Shown: positions 1-6,811 of the stretch, one piece after another
Position numbering within the stretch: position 1 is the stretch's first letter
Layout of the letters: each line of letters begins with the position of its first letter
Notes under the pieces: model-generated
Told to the model about the DNA's origin: nothing
What the model saw: only the letters and a program-made list of their open reading frames with translations
The model's database searches: none
From: Candidatus Aerophobota bacterium
GTDB taxonomy: Bacteria; Aerophobota; Aerophobia; Aerophobales; B3-G15
NCBI GenBank assembly: GCA_014859225.1
Contig: JACUUP010000082.1
Span: 1 to 6,811, forward strand
Direction: 5' to 3'
Length of the DNA stretch: 6,811 bases
Program-made: the position numbers and the translations under genes

Positions 1-56
1 AATCACCTTTGCTAAAAGGGCTAACAGTTAATCTCCACGAGGTCTTTGAATAAAAT

Positions 57-84
57 TTGACAAAAATAAAAAAGGTGCTATATT
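57..84 (+). promoter_or_regulatory. Promoter P1 (sigma-70/sigma-A type, extended -10)
   Basis: The -35 is an exact TTGACA (57-62), the spacer is 16 bases, and the -10 is TATATT (79-84) directly preceded by TGC (76-78), a TGn extended -10. Predicted transcription start is near 91, giving a 5' leader of about 560 nt. The spacer and -10 region resemble those of P5 (both contain GTGCT before the -10). Confidence 0.65.
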
Positions 85-121
85 AGCTCGGTTTATTTGA
101 AAATGCTTTTTCACCTGCTCC

Positions 122-149
122 TTGACAATTTTCTACCTTCTGGTAAGAT
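122..149 (+). promoter_or_regulatory. Promoter P2 (sigma-70/sigma-A type, extended -10)
   Basis: Exact TTGACA (122-127), a 16-base spacer, then TAAGAT (144-149) preceded by TGG (141-143), which again makes a TGn extended -10. Predicted start is near 156, so its transcript would carry the 193-210 palindrome close to its 5' end. Confidence 0.65.
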
Positions 150-192
150 AAACATGTAGTCTGCGCAATTATGCACCAGATAGCAGGGTAGT

Positions 193-210
193 CGCAGGCT
201 TCAGCCTGCG
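193..210. repeat. REP-like perfect palindrome between P2 and P3
   Basis: CGCAGGCTTCAGCCTGCG is a perfect inverted repeat, realistically a 7-bp GC-rich stem (193-199 with 204-210) and a TTCA loop. It stands out in AT-rich surroundings. No T-run follows it on the plus strand, and on the minus strand the T-run precedes the stem, so it does not look like a Rho-independent terminator. Short GC-rich palindromes of this kind are commonly dispersed intergenic repeats; whether this one is repeated elsewhere cannot be seen from a single copy. Confidence 0.6.
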
Positions 211-231
211 TAAAAAGGTAAGCTCTAATAC

Positions 232-259
232 TTGACAAATATCAATCGTCTGTTATTCT
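232..259 (+). promoter_or_regulatory. Promoter P3 (sigma-70/sigma-A type, extended -10)
   Basis: Exact TTGACA (232-237), a 16-base spacer, then TATTCT (254-259) preceded by TGT (251-253). Its -35 surroundings, TACTTGACAAATA (229-241), recur exactly at P5 (432-444). Predicted start is near 266. Confidence 0.65.
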
Positions 260-389
260 TACAAGCGGAGAAAAAATCGCTCAATCTCAAGAAAAGCTGA
301 GCATAGAAGAAAGTTTAACAAAGATTGAAGCTTTGTATGTAGGTCTATCAAAAAGAGTTCTTTTTCAATTTATCAAGTTTTAAATACTC

Positions 390-417
390 TTGACAGAATA
401 TTTTATTGTGCTATTTT
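390..417 (+). promoter_or_regulatory. Promoter P4 (sigma-70/sigma-A type, extended -10)
   Basis: Exact TTGACA (390-395), a 16-base spacer, then TATTTT (412-417) preceded by TGC (409-411). Predicted start is near 424, only about 11 bases before the -35 of P5, so polymerases at P4 and P5 would compete for overlapping DNA. Confidence 0.65.
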
Positions 418-434
418 CAAAATGCAGATTTTAC

Positions 435-462
435 TTGACAAATAAAAAGAGTGCTGTATTAT
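435..462 (+). promoter_or_regulatory. Promoter P5 (sigma-70/sigma-A type, gene-proximal)
   Basis: Exact TTGACA (435-440), a 16-base spacer, then TATTAT (457-462). The TG lies directly against the -10 (455-456) rather than one base away, so the extended -10 is imperfect here. Predicted start is near 469, which leaves a leader of about 185 nt before ATG 654. The TATTAT hexamer is among the closest to consensus in the array. Confidence 0.65.
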
Positions 463-487
463 TGAATTCATCCTTAAGAATAATAAA

Positions 488-539
488 GACTTACTTTACA
501 TAAATTTCATTGAGTGTGCCTTCCTTAGAAGAGTAAGTT
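488..539 (+). promoter_or_regulatory. Potential 5'-leader stem-loop
   Basis: ACTTACT (489-495) is the exact reverse complement of AGTAAGT (532-538). With wobble and adjacent pairs the stem extends to about 10 bp (488-497 with 530-539), enclosing a 32-nt loop. It lies about 20 nt from the predicted P5 start. A structure at the 5' end of the message would fit a stabilising role, but that is inference; the stem is AU-rich and the loop is large. Confidence 0.4.
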
Positions 540-589
540 ACAGTTCTAAAAAATTTGGCGAGTTATTCATCCTGAAAGAAAGGGGAAAA

Positions 590-667
590 GTGGATTTTTC
601 TTATTGTTTATATGCGTATACTACGGGTCTAAAGACAAAAAGGGAGGTAACCCATGTCTTATTCTAA
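590..667 (+). CDS. Possible 25-residue leader peptide overlapping the main start
   Basis: A GTG at 590 follows an AAAGGGG site (579-585) with a 4-base spacer and opens 25 codons ending at TAA 665-667. The frame differs from the main gene and overlaps its first 14 bases, so the main ribosome site (641-648) lies inside this ORF. Such an arrangement could couple translation of the main gene to the leader. The peptide, beginning MDFSYCLYAY, matches nothing I recognise. The GTG start and short length make chance occurrence quite likely. Confidence 0.2.
   Translation: MDFSYCLYAYTTGLKTKREVTHVLF
641..648 (+). promoter_or_regulatory. Shine-Dalgarno site for ATG 654
   Basis: AGGGAGGT lies 5 bases before ATG 654 and is a near-complete match to the 16S anti-SD. 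It supports 654 as a genuine start. AAGACA (632-637) can pair with TGTCTT (655-660), which would place this site in a loop next to a partly paired start codon; the pairing is only 6 bp. Confidence 0.7.
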
Positions 668-3600
668 TTTTGAATCAGCCTGCCAGGATTTTTCATCTAA
701 TAATAATCAGACTATCCAGAATCCGAAGTCCAGCAAAATTCTTGCTCAGCAATCATCCAACAAGTCATCTGATGGTTTTTTACATACATTAAAAAAAGGA
801 AAAAATATGCTATTTTCCGAAATAAAAGGAGCTAATAATATGCCAGAGAAGACCCGTCAAGCGGCGAGGAGGAAGTTAGGGATGAAGTGGACATCACGAA
901 GGGGTATAATGGGAAAAGCATTTTTTGTCGTCCTTATAAGCGTTACACTGCTTTGGGGTATCTCTGGACTTGCCCATGCAGTTAGTGTAACTTCCAATCC
1001 CGATGGAGTTGTAGCTACACCTAATATTGATGAAGGTGGACTTAGACTAGAATCTACGGACCTTACGATAGGTAAGTATTATCGTCTGACAGTTATCTAC
1101 CCGATAGATGCATTTGGGAATACTCAAATTACGCGCTACGAGTGGGGACCTGCTACTACTACCTCATTTAATGTGCGTTATTATGGTAATGCTCCTGGCT
1201 GGAGTGTAAATGTTCCGAGCTTAGAATGGCCAGGAAGATACGATGTTGTTTTAGGAGAGTATCCTGATGGTACTTATACTAGTGCTGAAACGAGCGAAAA
1301 AACTTATTTTTACGTGGTAGATGAAATTTCTGTTACTCCCACGCCTGATGGTATACCCAACGGTTCTGATTCTGTTATCGCCGTGGATGTGGAAACGGTT
1401 GGCTTTTTCCCGCCCGCTGGTCTTTGTATCCCTCAAGTGGGTGATGAGTTTACTATTAACATCCGGGCTGCAGATGACGCTTCAGGGACGACTGAGCTTT
1501 CTGGGGAAGCTACGCTGGTGTTCGATACTACCTCTCACGCGGGAACAGCTGTCTTATGGGGGAGTCCTGCTTCTCTTTCACTTGATGGCGGTGAACCTGC
1601 TGATCGTTACACCATACGAGGTGAGCAGACATTTTATCCCAATGTCCCTACCATACCCGCTCCTATTTATTGGGATGATACTTTTCCAGGTCTTATCTTT
1701 GGCCATCCTTACTTTTATATTTTTGAGGGCGTTGATGTAGCTACCATTGAAGTACATCACCCTAATGCTCTTCTCCAAGGGGAAAGCGAATCTACCGCTA
1801 CCACGTTTGATATTGCCTTGAGTTATTCAGGTGCTACCTCAGCTGATTTTGCCGCTTCAGAAACAGTTACTATCCTGGTTGCAGAAAGCGGGCCAAGGGC
1901 TTTTAGGCAAATATACGGCTGGACAAGTGGAGATACTGTTACTCTTGTTGCCGAAAGTGCTACAAGATTCTCTGTTACCGATGCCAGGTTAGCCCAGAAA
2001 AATACAGCACCCCGAGATACCTACACTCTTCACGCTTACGAAAACGCCCATGAAATTTTTGATCCAAGTGCTCATCCCCAATTTGCCGATGACACAACAG
2101 CCATCCATCCCTATTTATTCATACTTGATTCTCTGGATGTAGTTGTAGATGCGCCTGATGTGTTTAACAGCGCATTATCCAACCAGACAACTTTTGATGT
2201 TATCGCTGCTGGTACATTTGATGACCCGACCAATGGACAGGCTCCGTACACTGCTACGGTAGCAATTAGTTTTGATAGCGCGAGTGTTTACATTTCTCCT
2301 GCGACGACTACGCTTACACTGACTTTAAGTGGCGGGGTGCTTGCCTCCTATGACACGGCACTGTTCTACAATGCTGATTTAGGTCCTCCCGATCCTTCCC
2401 GAGTTACCTTTGTTATCTGGGAAAACTGGGCTGGTAATCCTACGGTGCCGGCAGATGAGAATCCGAACGAAACAGATCCTTGGTTCAATGGTGATTTCCC
2501 CGGGGATCAATTCGAGCTAACCGGCTCTCCCTACGTCTACGCTATTGACGGGCCGTTCCATTTTAACGTTCATCCACCCGATGCGTTTCTTGCCGGATCT
2601 GCCAATCAGACGACCTTTGATGCCTGGGTAGATGGCTCAATTACCGGCGCATCCACGGGAGATACCATCACTGTCCTCGTGAACGCCTCCGGGGCGAGCG
2701 CAATGGTAAGTGCCGCTACCGCGGTCACGCTGGTCTATGATGGGGAACAATTTGCTACCTACGATGTACCGCTCTACATTGGAGCTATTTCTGCAGGCAG
2801 GTACCTTCTCCATGCCCAGAAAAACGAGGTTGATGGTCCTTACTGGGATACTTTAGATACAAACGTTGGGGATAACCATCCCTACGTGTACGTGCTGGAT
2901 ATGGGCAATGCTACATACTCCCATGGAAGCATAAGAATCAAGGAATGTCATCCGGATGTGTTTGTTGCCGGGACAAGTGATGCAACGGTTCTGCCCGCAT
3001 ACGGAATTCACCTTTGGGCTTCTGTTGAAGGGGGAGGTAACTCTAACAGAGGGGCAGGTGACCGAATCACGCTGGACATAAGAAACGCTGAGGGGACCAT
3101 ACAGGCACGCAATGTGGTGCTCGGGGCGCATGGTCAAGCAGGTGGTTTTCCTAATCTTATTGCGGTTTATTTTAGTAACCATGGTGTTTCCGGGGATGGT
3201 GATGTGGACCTCCTCGTAGATGAGACGGCAACCGCAAATACCCGTCATACCCTGGGATTTTATAAGAGCGGCTCTGTGGACTCTTTCGAGCCTCTTGAGT
3301 GGGGGCCTCGTTGGCCCTGGACTGACGAATCTCACCACTACGTGTACGTGTTTGATGACACCACTAACATATTTGAGATTTTCGTGTATCCGCCCGATGT
3401 TTTCGTTCAGGGGAGTGCGGATACTACTACCTTTGATATACAGGTGCCTATCGGCGCATCAAGTGATGGGGATACCATTAACGTGCGAGTTTTCTGTGAA
3501 GCCGATACTGAAGTCTCTGCCGGCACGGTTACCCTGGTAGCATCTGGCGGAATGTTCGCTGCGACGGAAGTAACGGTTGATGTCAGCGCTTCTGCTTTGG

Positions 3601-6600
3601 TGGGTGAAAAGCAACTTGACGTTTTTGAGAAGGGAGATGCGCTTACCTATGGACGCCTGCCCAACAAGTTTGCTCTTAACATCGCCGACAGCCCAACCTC
3701 GCATCCGTACCTTTTTGTGGTTGATAAATTTGATATGAATTTGACCCCCAATGCATTCCAGTACTGCAGCAGTCCTGATACCGTCACCATTGCTATATCT
3801 GCAGACCTCACGACAGCCGTCTCTCCTGGGAATCCTGGAAGGTTTGGCTATGTAGTTACGGAGTTATGGGGCTCTACGTTTGCTTTGAGCACGACAACTG
3901 TCGTGGTGGTTGACGGAGATCATTTATTGGCAACTGCCCAGAGCGTGGATATTGACACCTGCACCTTGCCAACTGGTAAATATGACGTAATAGTCCGGGA
4001 GTTTGCCTCTCAGTCGTTCCCGCTTTCTGGACACACCTATTTCTACATCATTGGTGACCCTTTAACGGATGATACCCGTTTTGGTTTGACAGTAACTGGC
4101 TGCGAGGTATTTAATACCGCCTCACCTGATACGACCACGGTTGCGGTAACCAGCCAGTCTACCAATCCTCCCTCGGGAGCCGTGCATGGTGACGAAATTA
4201 CCATCCTCATCGCGGCAAGCGGTGATATAACAGGTGTATCTGGAACATCCACGCTCTACTGGGATGGAAACAAATTTGTCCAAACAGCTGATGCCACGGT
4301 ATACATTAACTCTGCCACTCCCGGGAAGAGATGGCTTTACGCCTACGAGAATGGCTCGAACTTCAGCCAATTTACCACTGATCCTGCTGACTGGATCTAT
4401 TTAATTGACACCTTCTACATTGATGTTTTCGCGCCGGATGCATTTTTGCAGGGAAGTCCTGATTACACCACTTTTGATATATGGACGAGTCCTGTGCCCG
4501 GGGACACGGGTGACACGCTCGCTATGATTGTGATAAACGAGGAAGGCGATGTTTTCGCTGACACCATTGACCACAAAGTCACCCTCACCCATGATGGAAC
4601 TCAATTTACTGTTACTATTGTGATAAGCTTGAAGTACGATGGGGATGGACCACACGGGGAAAAACTCCTGCAGGTAATAAGGCCCTGTGACGACACGGCA
4701 CTTCGCCTGGATGAGACTTTGGCGTATCATCCCTATGTGTATGTCTTCAGCGAGCATTTCACCCTTGATGTGGGTAACCCCGATGCCTTTGTGCGGGGAG
4801 CTACAGATACAACAACGGTGGCGATAACTGGAGATGTGGCTTTCGCTACCTATCCTGGTAGTGCTGGCCGAACTGCCACCATCTACCTGTACTCCGAGCT
4901 TCCCTCTGAAATTAGTGCTGCTACCGCTGAGGTAACGTTAGTGAATGATGGAGCAGGTTACCTGACTCCTGCCAGCCCGCCGGTAGTGCTTGAGTATCTT
5001 GCAGCTGATGCGAATCTTCCTGCCCAGAGAGTGCAGCTTTACCTGCGGGAAAATCATACCGTCTCGCCAGATGACTTCCCGACCTATGGACCGGCAGACG
5101 GAACACCACTGTTAGGGCATGACTATTTGTATATCCTGGATGAGGCAAGCAGTGACTACTTCGTGATTACCGTTCATCATCCCAATGCTTTTATGCAGAG
5201 TCCACCCATGATGATGCCTCAAGAGACTACATTTGACATCGCGCACACCGTGGGTGATACACTTTCCGGTGATACCATTCACATCAATGTCTACATCAGC
5301 CCCAAGGGCGAGATGTGGGCAACGATTGCCACTGTAGAAACAAGTCTAGAGCTTGCAGCTCCCTACGCCGGGGCATCCCTTGCCACCACAGACGTTCAGC
5401 TCATAGTTGACCCGAGCGTAGCCGAGAACGTTGGTAAATACGAGCTGTGGCCGACAGAGTACCCTGCTGACCCGTACGAGTTCTTCGCCGTTGCCTGGGA
5501 TGAGGGGCATCCGTACTTCTTTGTCCTGAGCAAGATGACTGCCTGGGTGAACTGGAACGTGGTAACCGTTGGCGGAAACCAGATTCTGCGCATCTGGACA
5601 GATGATGAGGTTTTCCAGGTTGTATCCAACGATACAGCCACGGTAGATGTAGCATTGTACAATCCGGCTGCATCACCACCCCCCACCGGAATATATCCAT
5701 GCACCACATTTACCGTCACACTTGAAGCCTGGCCCGAATCTTTAGATCCTCATGCAGCCAAGGCCTATAAATACTTTGAATTTGTGGTTCCCTGGACAGG
5801 TGATTCTGAAAAAGATGAGGGTAAGTATCATATGGATGTTCTTATGAGTGGTGTTTCCTGGGAGCCTTATCCTGTTTCCTGGCTCAATCCACCCGATTTA
5901 TACCCGGGTGGAGCACCTGAGCAGGGCTTTAACTATCCCTTCTTCTGGGCGTTCTATGATGAGATTAACATTATTGAGCCTCATGCAGGAGATATTATTA
6001 AAGGTGAGGTTGACATTAAAGTCATAGAAACCTTAAAGTACACCGATTTTCTCCGCTTCTCAGTTGCACCAAGCGGCAGCAGCGTATACTACGACCTTGA
6101 TGGAAGTGTAGGCTACACGGAAGTGAGCGACCCCATCTCTACAGTAAGTGGACCTACCGGTGATGTTGAAGTTAACAACTGGCAAGCCGCGTGGGATACC
6201 ACCTGGGTGCCGGCTGCAAGCGAGGGAGTATGGTATATCAGGGTGCAAGCCTATGATTTCAGTGACCCTGAAAGCCTACTTGGCCAGGACATAATTGCGG
6301 TAACCGTGGATAACACGCCACCTTCAATAGTTATCACTGAACCTGCATCCAGGGTAAGTGGAACTTTAACCTTGACTGCCGCTGCCTCTGATACAACTAC
6401 CAATATCACTGAAGTATTCTGGCAGTATGCAGAATCAAATTCATCTACCTGGTATCCGCTGGCTAAAGACCAGTTTGTTACATCGCCTATAACCTCGTCA
6501 GTTCAGCTTGATACAACTGCTCTCAGCGATGGCGACTGGCAGGTGAAAGCTACCGCCTACGATGAGGCAGGCTGGACATCATCTGATACAGTAAGCTTCC

Positions 6601-6811
6601 AGGTAGACAATACTGGCCCGATAATCTCTGATATATCGGTTGTACCTGATCCAACAAACACTGATCCGACACTCACCTTCGCCGTAGAGGATGTGCTGAA
6701 CAACCTGGGTATTGCCGAGCTTTACATAGATAGCTATCCCAGCACAGCCATCACCAGCATAACCATTGGTGCCTACTCGGCATCTACGATAACAACAACT
6801 ATTAATATTAC
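654..6811 (+). CDS. Giant secreted tandem-repeat surface protein (S-layer-like or adhesin), 3' end beyond the window
   Basis: A single open frame runs from ATG 654 to the window end with no stop (2,052 codons), so the C-terminus is missing. Start 654 is the longest option and has an excellent ribosome site, but in-frame ATGs at 840 and 882 also have strong sites. Residues 1-76 are hydrophilic and rich in Ser, Asn, Gln and Lys. Residues 77-109 form a Sec signal peptide with a hydrophobic core at 89-107 and an AHA cleavage site. Residues 110-1770 are 13 diverged tandem units, and residues 1771 onward are Ig-like modules ending in VDNTPP or VDNTGP linkers. The mature part is rich in Thr, Asp, Ala and Val, poor in Lys, Arg and Cys, and visibly beta-strand-like. 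No catalytic motif, SLH, dockerin, LPxTG or transmembrane segment is visible after the signal peptide. A structural surface role (S-layer, sheath or adhesin) is inferred from architecture and from the strong promoter region; the exact function is unknown. Confidence 0.93.
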   Translation, partial: MSYSNFESACQDFSSNNNQTIQNPKSSKILAQQSSNKSSDGFLHTLKKGKNMLFSEIKGANNMPEKTRQAARRKLGMKWTSRRGIMGKAFFVVLISVTLLWGISGLAHAVSVTSNPDGVVATPNIDEGGLRLESTDLTIGKYYRLTVIYPIDAFGNTQITRYEWGPATTTSFNVRYYGNAPGWSVNVPSLEWPGRYDVVLGEYPDGTYTSAETSEKTYFYVVDEISVTPTPDGIPNGSDSVIAVDVETVGFFPPAGLCIPQVGDEFTINIRAADDASGTTELSGEATLVFDTTSHAGTAVLWGSPASLSLDGGEPADRYTIRGEQTFYPNVPTIPAPIYWDDTFPGLIFGHPYFYIFEGVDVATIEVHHPNALLQGESESTATTFDIALSYSGATSADFAASETVTILVAESGPRAFRQIYGWTSGDTVTLVAESATRFSVTDARLAQKNTAPRDTYTLHAYENAHEIFDPSAHPQFADDTTAIHPYLFILDSLDVVVDAPDVFNSALSNQTTFDVIAAGTFDDPTNGQAPYTATVAISFDSASVYISPATTTLTLTLSGGVLASYDTALFYNADLGPPDPSRVTFVIWENWAGNPTVPADENPNETDPWFNGDFPGDQFELTGSPYVYAIDGPFHFNVHPPDAFLAGSANQTTFDAWVDGSITGASTGDTITVLVNASGASAMVSAATAVTLVYDGEQFATYDVPLYIGAISAGRYLLHAQKNEVDGPYWDTLDTNVGDNHPYVYVLDMGNATYSHGSIRIKECHPDVFVAGTSDATVLPAYGIHLWASVEGGGNSNRGAGDRITLDIRNAEGTIQARNVVLGAHGQAGGFPNLIAVYFSNHGVSGDGDVDLLVDETATANTRHTLGFYKSGSVDSFEPLEWGPRWPWTDESHHYVYVFDDTTNIFEIFVYPPDVFVQGSADTTTFDIQVPIGASSDGDTINVRVFCEADTEVSAGTVTLVASGGMFAATEVTVDVSASALVGEKQLDVFEKGDALTYGRLPNKFALNIADSPTSHPYLFVVDKFDMNLTPNAFQYCSSPDTVTIAISADLTTAVSPGNPGRFGYVVTELWGSTFALSTTTVVVVDGDHLLATAQSVDIDTCTLPTGKYDVIVREFASQSFPLSGHTYFYIIGDPLTDDTRFGLTVTGCEVFNTASPDTTTVAVTSQSTNPPSGAVHGDEITILIAASGDITGVSGTSTLYWDGNKFVQTADATVYINSATPGKRWLYAYENGSNFSQFTTDPADWIYLIDTFYIDVFAPDAFLQGSPDYTTFDIWTSPVPGDTGDTLAMIVINEEGDVFADTIDHKVTLTHDGTQFTVTIVISLKYDGDGPHGEKLLQVIRPCDDTALRLDETLAYHPYVYVFSEHFTLDVGNPDAFVRGATDTTTVAITGDVAFATYPGSAGRTATIYLYSELPSEISAATAEVTLVNDGAGYLTPASPPVVLEYLAADANLPAQRVQLYLRENHTVSPDDFPTYGPADGTPLLGHDYLYILDEASSDYFVITVHHPNAFMQSPPMMMPQETTFDIAHTVGDTLSGDTIHINVYISPKGEMWATIATVETSLELAAPYAGASLATTDVQLIVDPSVAENVGKYELWPTEYPADPYEFFAVAWDEGHPYFFVLSKMTAWVNWNVVTVGGNQILRIWTDDEVFQVVSNDTATVDVALYNPAASPPPTGIYPCTTFTVTLEAWPESLDPHAAKAYKYFEFVVPWTGDSEKDEGKYHMDVLMSGVSWEPYPVSWLNPPDLYPGGAPEQGFNYPFFWAFYDEINIIEPHAGDIIKGEVDIKVIETLKYTDFLRFSVAPSGSSVYYDLDGSVGYTEVSDPISTVSGPTGDVEVNNWQAAWDTTWVPAASEGVWYIRVQAYDFSDPESLLGQDIIAVTVDNTPPSIVITEPASRVSGTLTLTAAASDTTTNITEVFWQYAESNSSTWYPLAKDQFVTSPITSSVQLDTTALSDGDWQVKATAYDEAGWTSSDTVSFQVDNTGPIISDISVVPDPTNTDPTLTFAVEDVLNNLGIAELYIDSYPSTAITSITIGAYSASTITTTINI
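825..831 (+). promoter_or_regulatory. Shine-Dalgarno site for alternative in-frame ATG 840
   Basis: AAAGGAG sits 8 bases before ATG 840 (residue 63 of the long form), an ideal spacing. It is in frame with ATG 654, so initiation here would give the same mature protein with only 14 residues ahead of the signal peptide start at Met77. ATG 807 also has a weaker AGGA upstream. Confidence 0.5.
866..872 (+). promoter_or_regulatory. Shine-Dalgarno site for alternative in-frame ATG 882
   Basis: GAGGAGG sits 9 bases before ATG 882 (Met77). Starting here gives a conventional 33-residue signal peptide with no extension, which is the main argument for this start. The site could also be incidental, because it encodes the Arg-Arg stretch preceding the signal peptide. 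Confidence 0.5.
882..980 (+). other. Signal peptide (Sec type), residues 77-109 of the giant protein
   Basis: Starting at Met77, the n-region is positively charged (Lys, Arg, Arg, Lys). A hydrophobic core with FFVVLISVTLLW follows, then a polar end with GLAHA and a predicted cleavage after Ala109, before VSV. The length of 33 residues is normal for a signal peptide when counted from Met77. If translation starts at ATG 654 or 840, the same signal carries an N-terminal extension of 76 or 14 extra residues. There is no lipobox cysteine at the cleavage point, so this is a signal peptidase I type site rather than a lipoprotein signal. Confidence 0.9.
981..5963 (+). repeat. Thirteen diverged tandem protein units of about 110-150 residues
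   Basis: Units are recognised at the protein level. Each ends in an aromatic strand of the type HPYVYVLD: residues 216 (KTYFYVVDE), 351, 485, 625, 742, 894, 1017, 1127, 1246, 1359, 1489, 1619 and 1761 (YPFFWAFYDE). From the second unit on, each opens with a PDAF-type motif followed by an acidic or polar turn and TTFDI: around 228 (weak), 368, 499, 640, 766, 912, 1031, 1149, 1260, 1375, 1508 and 1651 (weak). Most share a middle GDTI strand (for example GDTITVLV, GDTINVRV, GDTIHINV), a VTLV.DG..F strand, and G(K/R)Y followed by E shortly before the end motif. The alternating pattern suggests a beta-sandwich fold similar to Ig or fibronectin modules. I do not recognise the unit as a named family. 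DNA identity between units is low, so the array is old rather than freshly amplified. Confidence 0.85.
5964..6811 (+). other. C-terminal Ig-like modules (two complete, one cut by the window edge)
   Basis: At residue 1771 the sequence changes from the tandem unit to bacterial Ig-like modules. Module 1 (about 1771-1887) begins INIIEPHAGDIIKGEVDI and ends in a VDNTPP linker. Module 2 (about 1889-1986) begins SIVITEPASRVSGTLTL, contains DTTALSDGDWQVKATAYD then AGWTSSDTV, and ends VDNTGP. Module 3 begins near 1989 (IISDISVVPDPTN) and is open at the window end. The opening I.I.EP...SG.L.L strand, the dG.w.v.a.AyD.aG strand and the VDNT linker are typical of Ig-like domains of large bacterial exoproteins. 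Such modules usually act as stalks or spacers, and nothing here suggests catalysis. Confidence 0.8.

Follow-up and report, generated by a model that had tools for sequence, protein, structure and literature searches.

A putative array of five tandem sigma-70-type promoters, followed by two in-frame translation starts, lies upstream of a giant gene in the genome of an uncultured deep-sea bacterium, and this arrangement probably serves to produce an abundant surface protein in large amounts. The host belongs to the phylum Candidatus Aerophobota and is not a Firmicute. The window, i.e. the whole stretch of DNA that was analysed, is contig C198 (6,811 bp) of a MAG of 1.81 Mb in 273 contigs (91% complete). 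In brief, five perfect -35 boxes are present in a single direction before a single gene, their number far exceeds chance and is unmatched in the part of the genome that was sampled, and the same number and type of promoters are kept at the orthologous locus of another genus.

The promoter array

Within positions 57-462, five exact TTGACA hexamers are present on the + strand (57, 122, 232, 390 and 435); the - strand of this region contains none. Each is followed at 16 nt by a -10-like hexamer, which is directly preceded by a TGn motif in P1-P4 but not in P5. The original observation is thereby confirmed. The features of the array are the following:

P1, 57..84, + strand: TTGACA, 16 nt, TATATT, with TGC before the -10; conserved, spacer included, with position L061:8673 of the AUK192 genome (see below)
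P2, 122..149, + strand: TTGACA, 16 nt, TAAGAT, with TGG
P3, 232..259, + strand: TTGACA, 16 nt, TATTCT, with TGT
P4, 390..417, + strand: TTGACA, 16 nt, TATTTT, with TGC
P5, 435..462, + strand: TTGACA, 16 nt, TATTAT, without TGn; its spacer resembles that of P1
Palindrome, 193..210 (28-bp palindrome 188-215), + strand: CGCAGGCTTCAGCCTGCG, a dispersed short repeat of the genome, between P2 and P3

These are the top five promoter-like sites in the entire 6.8-kb window. They match the sigma-70 (SigA) consensus at 10 or 11 of 12 positions, all five at the 16-nt spacing, and the -10 hexamers of P2-P4 each match four of the six consensus positions. The start-to-start intervals are 65 (P1-P2), 110, 158 and 45 bp (P4-P5). 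P1 and P5 share 19 of 22 nt, which suggests that the array grew by duplication.

A chance origin of the array was rejected on the basis of 20,000 dinucleotide shuffles of window positions 1-653, in which TTGACA occurred 0.14 times on average and three times at most, none of the shuffles reaching five; TTGACA combined with a good -10 hexamer at 16 nt never occurred more than once. The original prediction had considered both the five perfect boxes and their identical spacing to be far from chance, and the first part stands while the second has to be reduced. Indeed, in 317 kb of the host genome, a good -10 hexamer follows TTGACA at 16 nt in 31 cases and at 17 nt in 23 cases, versus five and five for the reversed hexamer, and a looser TTGACA/-10 pattern gave 291 versus 67 sites genome-wide. 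This strong enrichment indicates that TTGACA marks the ordinary housekeeping promoters of the organism. With 31 of the 61 sites that have a good -10, 16 nt is also the commonest spacing of the genome; given five promoters, the probability that all of them show it is about 1 in 30, so that the identical spacing is mostly the house style. The special feature of the locus is the number of promoters and not their shared spacing.

Uniqueness was assessed in stretches adding up to about 456 kb of the 1.8-Mb genome (about one quarter), and by whole-genome pattern scans. The next best same-strand cluster in the 456 kb contains three TTGACA per 450 nt, and no other cluster of at least four was found in the sample when one -35 mismatch was allowed, except the orthologous locus of AUK192. 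Tandem TTGACA pairs 36-66 bp apart, sought in whole-genome scans, occur twice at the window locus and three times at the AUK192 locus, and no other close groups of such pairs were found in either genome. A dispersed-repeat nature of the array, which the original prediction had named as an outcome that would speak against it, was rejected. Indeed, the region is unique in the genome except for the 28-bp palindrome, of which CGCAGGCTTCAGCCTGCG has about nine dispersed copies, including one just before a TPR-protein gene on contig C45 and three on contig C40. A phase-variable inversion was ruled out, since no inverted repeat pair is present in window positions 1-800.

Some other groups of sites were noted during these scans. 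The second-best cluster (contig C16, L038 positions 10376-10487) comprises three TTGACA in 84 bp, two of them with a good -10, and lies in front of an apparent hydrogenase/sulfhydrogenase beta-subunit operon. On the - strand of contig C73 (L048, near 1690, 8930 and 12983), there are three sites of closely similar sequence, TTGACAAAAATAYTTYTCTRYRCTAYRCT; one of them is located upstream of a sugar-binding ABC transporter-like gene, and the three could belong to a small regulon that uses a common promoter. A different genome of the order (G003) contains, on contig C76 (3708-3858), near-identical tandem units of about 50 bp, TTGACAAG...GCAAGCTCAAATC, which look like a direct-repeat array and not like promoters.

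Conservation in a second genus

A protein search of 41 genomes recovered one ortholog of the giant gene, in Candidatus Aerophobetes bacterium AUK192 (JAGGZA010000075.1; phylum Candidatus Aerophobota), which belongs to another genus of the same family and whose protein is about 45% identical. A profile search of 15 further genomes from the order revealed no additional ortholog, and searches of genome contigs and viral contigs yielded none beyond that of AUK192. As two orthologs are known, what is said here on conservation applies to one pair of genera.

The gap upstream of the AUK192 ortholog (L061 8626-9094) contains exactly five TTGACA on the coding strand (8630, 8673, 8711, 8791 and 8850) and none on the other strand, with start-to-start intervals of 43, 38, 80 and 59 bp. 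Four of the five boxes are followed by a good -10 hexamer at 16-17 nt, both spacings being mixed, and the third site has a poor -10 under the strict rule. TGn precedes the -10 at four of the five sites, a count that depends on the chosen placement of the -10 hexamers. Taken together, TGn is present at 8 of the 10 promoters of both loci versus 15 of the 61 sites of the genome sample (Fisher P 0.0013), and the promoter devoid of TGn in each locus carries one of the better -10 hexamers of that locus. The original reading of the region as tandem sigma-70-type promoters before a single gene is thus reinforced by an ortholog that keeps both their number and their type.

The P1 motif with its spacer was found, with one mismatch allowed, only at P1 of the window and at position 8673 of AUK192 among 17 genomes of the order. 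Outside P1, the promoter regions of the two genera align poorly, and positions and spacers are not clearly alignable, which indicates that, P1 apart, individual promoters turn over. Since five perfect -35 boxes, a single direction and TGn at four of five sites are nevertheless kept in both genera, selection seems to maintain the set of promoters rather than most of its individual members.

Leader and translation starts

The features downstream of the array are the following:

Leader, 469..653, + strand: about 185 nt, from the predicted start of P5 to the first ATG; partly conserved in AUK192
First translation start, 641..656, + strand: AGGGAGG and ATG 654; aligns with AAAAGGAGG and an ATG in AUK192
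Frozen codon block, 792..842, + strand: codons 47-63, immediately upstream of the second start and including it
Second in-frame start, 824..842, + strand: AAAAGGAG and ATG 840, 62 codons after ATG 654
Giant secreted-protein gene, 654..6811, + strand: at least 2,052 codons, open to the contig end

A riboswitch or another known RNA in the leader was rejected. Indeed, the window has no match in Rfam, the single match in AUK192 is far below the threshold, and the leader folds no more strongly than its shuffles (z 0.95 and -0.19).

The two in-frame starts are also present in AUK192 (L061 9095-9241). Several features at the second start are conserved at the level of nucleotides: (i) in codons 47-63, a block that was picked after viewing the alignment but that is also the gene's best conserved one of that length, identical codons encode all 11 shared residues (Met and Trp excluded), versus a background of 36% (P 1.4e-5); (ii) AAAAGGAGCTAATAANATG is present once in each of the two genomes compared here (G000 and G001) and in none of the other 15 genomes of the order; and (iii) a hairpin GGAAAA-N9-TTTTCC (798-818) before the second start has kept its stem unchanged between the genera while its loop has changed. 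These features point to nucleotide-level selection at the second start, as would be expected of a real internal ribosome-binding site. Both starts are located upstream of a hydrophobic signal segment (codons 89-103), so that either of them would yield the same exported protein, and both are presumably used in translation.

It is conceivable, though we hold it only tentatively, that the second start and the frozen block form a dedicated translational element, which would give rise to two precursors, one of them carrying 62 additional residues ahead of the signal peptide, and that their ratio controls the export of a giant type IX substrate. If so, this element and the five promoters would make up an independently evolved module combining transcriptional and translational output, for the surface coat of an uncultured phylum.

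Two in-frame translation starts and a long leader are also features of the middle wall protein gene of Brevibacillus brevis 47. The second in-frame start of the window therefore brings the locus closer to the cell-wall-protein (cwp) operon of this species than the original prediction, which had drawn that analogy from the promoters, had seen. To our knowledge, other S-layer genes have about two promoters rather than five and no second in-frame start.

The giant protein and its probable secretion route

No Pfam family was found in the window protein, and no SLH domain or other S-layer family (NCBIfam included) was found in this protein, in its ortholog or in the contig likely to hold its C-terminal part. 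About ten repeats of 110-150 aa each are encoded in codons 351-1618. A search by sequence revealed no solved relatives, and one repeat was predicted to be an all-beta sandwich (pLDDT 77). Among solved structures, it is closest to Ig-like domains of GH2 enzymes and to a part of Brr2, and adhesin repeat domains match it as well. With Z of up to 6.7, these matches are too weak for a family assignment.

An open-ended frame of 866 aa on contig C262, similar at its beginning to the last part of the window frame, encodes bacterial Ig repeats, a FlgD_ig domain and a T9SS type A sorting tail, and adjoins a PorV-family gene (L056 904-4516). This frame probably represents the C-terminal portion of the giant gene, the contig break being due to the repeats; the sorting tail (TIGR04183) scores 23.4 bits for a cut-off of 23. 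Furthermore, a SprA-like gene is present upstream of the AUK192 ortholog (L061 177-4955), with a score of 183 bits that is below the curated cut-off of 200. The product is most likely a giant Ig-repeat surface protein exported via a type IX-like route, and it may form a surface coat. These data suggest the presence of a type IX-like secretion system in Candidatus Aerophobota, a phylum for which a literature search found no report of type IX secretion or of such a protein. Should this reading hold, the product would be a likely major surface protein of the phylum. The resemblance to type IX substrates of Bacteroidota lies in the Ig repeats, the FlgD_ig domain and type A tail of C262, its PorV-family neighbour and the SprA-like gene of AUK192; the case differs from the systems of Bacteroidota in that the SprA match of AUK192 is below the cut-off and the link between the window and C262 is itself deduced.

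Comparison with the cwp operon

According to a passage of PMC4906056, the B. brevis 47 cwp operon has, like the window, five tandem promoters before a major surface-protein gene, and multiple promoters are a feature of some S-protein genes, so that more than one promoter before a gene for an abundant surface protein is a feature that the window shares with them. However, the window comes from an unrelated phylum, all its promoters have one architecture, its second start lies 62 codons into the frame, and its product is a giant Ig-like repeat protein without a recognised S-layer domain. As the host is a member of Candidatus Aerophobota and no S-layer domain is recognised, the likeness to cwp is one of layout; the operon is the closest known parallel, and the originally proposed analogy holds in that sense, extended by the two in-frame starts. 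The window gene is not called an S-layer gene, since no S-layer family was recognised. A literature search turned up no similar layout in Candidatus Aerophobota. Overall, the original interpretation is partly supported.

Possible use of the promoters

From the organisation of the locus, it is likely that the tandem array and the two translation starts ensure that an abundant surface protein is made at a high level. The five sigma-70/SigA-type promoters, each with a perfect -35 box, would occupy the gap before the giant gene, and the extended TGn motif would rescue an imperfect -10 at most of them. RNA polymerase could start at any of the five, all transcripts entering the same gene with leaders of about 185-560 nt, and the mRNA would then be loaded at two strong ribosome-binding sites, both in frame (ATG 654 and ATG 840). 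Such a unit would most likely give a high and steady output of the protein, probably exported by the type IX-like route. All five promoters are presumably used, and high expression of the giant gene is a reasonable inference. If this is right, a layout of five promoters and two starts has also arisen outside Brevibacillus, suggesting a general way of making exported proteins in very large amounts, and the array yields candidate strong promoters for expression work.

This output need not be five times that of a single promoter. P4 and P5 (45 bp apart) and P1 and P2 (65 bp), like the promoters of AUK192 (38-80 bp), are closer than two polymerases would comfortably fit next to each other; such neighbours may block one another and could hardly be occupied together, which limits additive strength. 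Conditional use and continuous reoccupation are no less plausible than an additive output.

The promoters could alternatively serve tuning rather than raw strength, with regulators or alternative sigma factors bringing different ones into use according to growth phase or conditions, and this is the most serious of the other explanations, although we consider it unlikely. The close spacing, which disfavours simple additivity, would fit it, and so would the conserved spacer of P1, which sigma-70 does not require and which something may therefore read. There is also a precedent, since one of the five promoters of the B. brevis S-protein gene works in every growth phase and another is confined to the exponential phase (PMC4906056, in a passage citing Adachi et al. 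1989). However, a single sigma-70 architecture across all five promoters does not indicate an alternative sigma factor, and no inverted-repeat operator was found in window positions 1-800.

It is far less probable that the array is redundant and without special function, promoters arising easily in AT-rich gaps where harmless duplications accumulate. The likeness of P1 and P5 and the turnover of the members other than P1 would be compatible with such an origin, but the features kept in both genera (five perfect -35 boxes, all in one direction, and TGn at four of five sites) point to selection on the set, and no other gap in the genome sample shows them. A repeated operator of a DNA-binding protein, as which TTGACA would not be a -35 box, is very improbable: all ten boxes of the two loci are indeed perfectly identical, but 9 of the 10 are followed by a good -10 hexamer at 16-17 nt, the intervals listed above for both loci show no helical phasing, and promoters of this genome generally follow the pattern of TTGACA with a -10 at 16-17 nt.

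Gene order

The array of AUK192 is flanked by a TPR-protein gene on one side and by the giant gene on the other, with O-antigen-ligase family and SprA-like genes further upstream. Contig C45 of the MAG ends in the same ligase-TPR pair, its TPR protein being 69% identical to that of AUK192, and the very start of the window, when translated in frame 2 (ITFAKRANS, with a stop at 29-31), is similar to the C-terminus of the AUK192 TPR protein. Contig C45 thus likely precedes C198 in the MAG.
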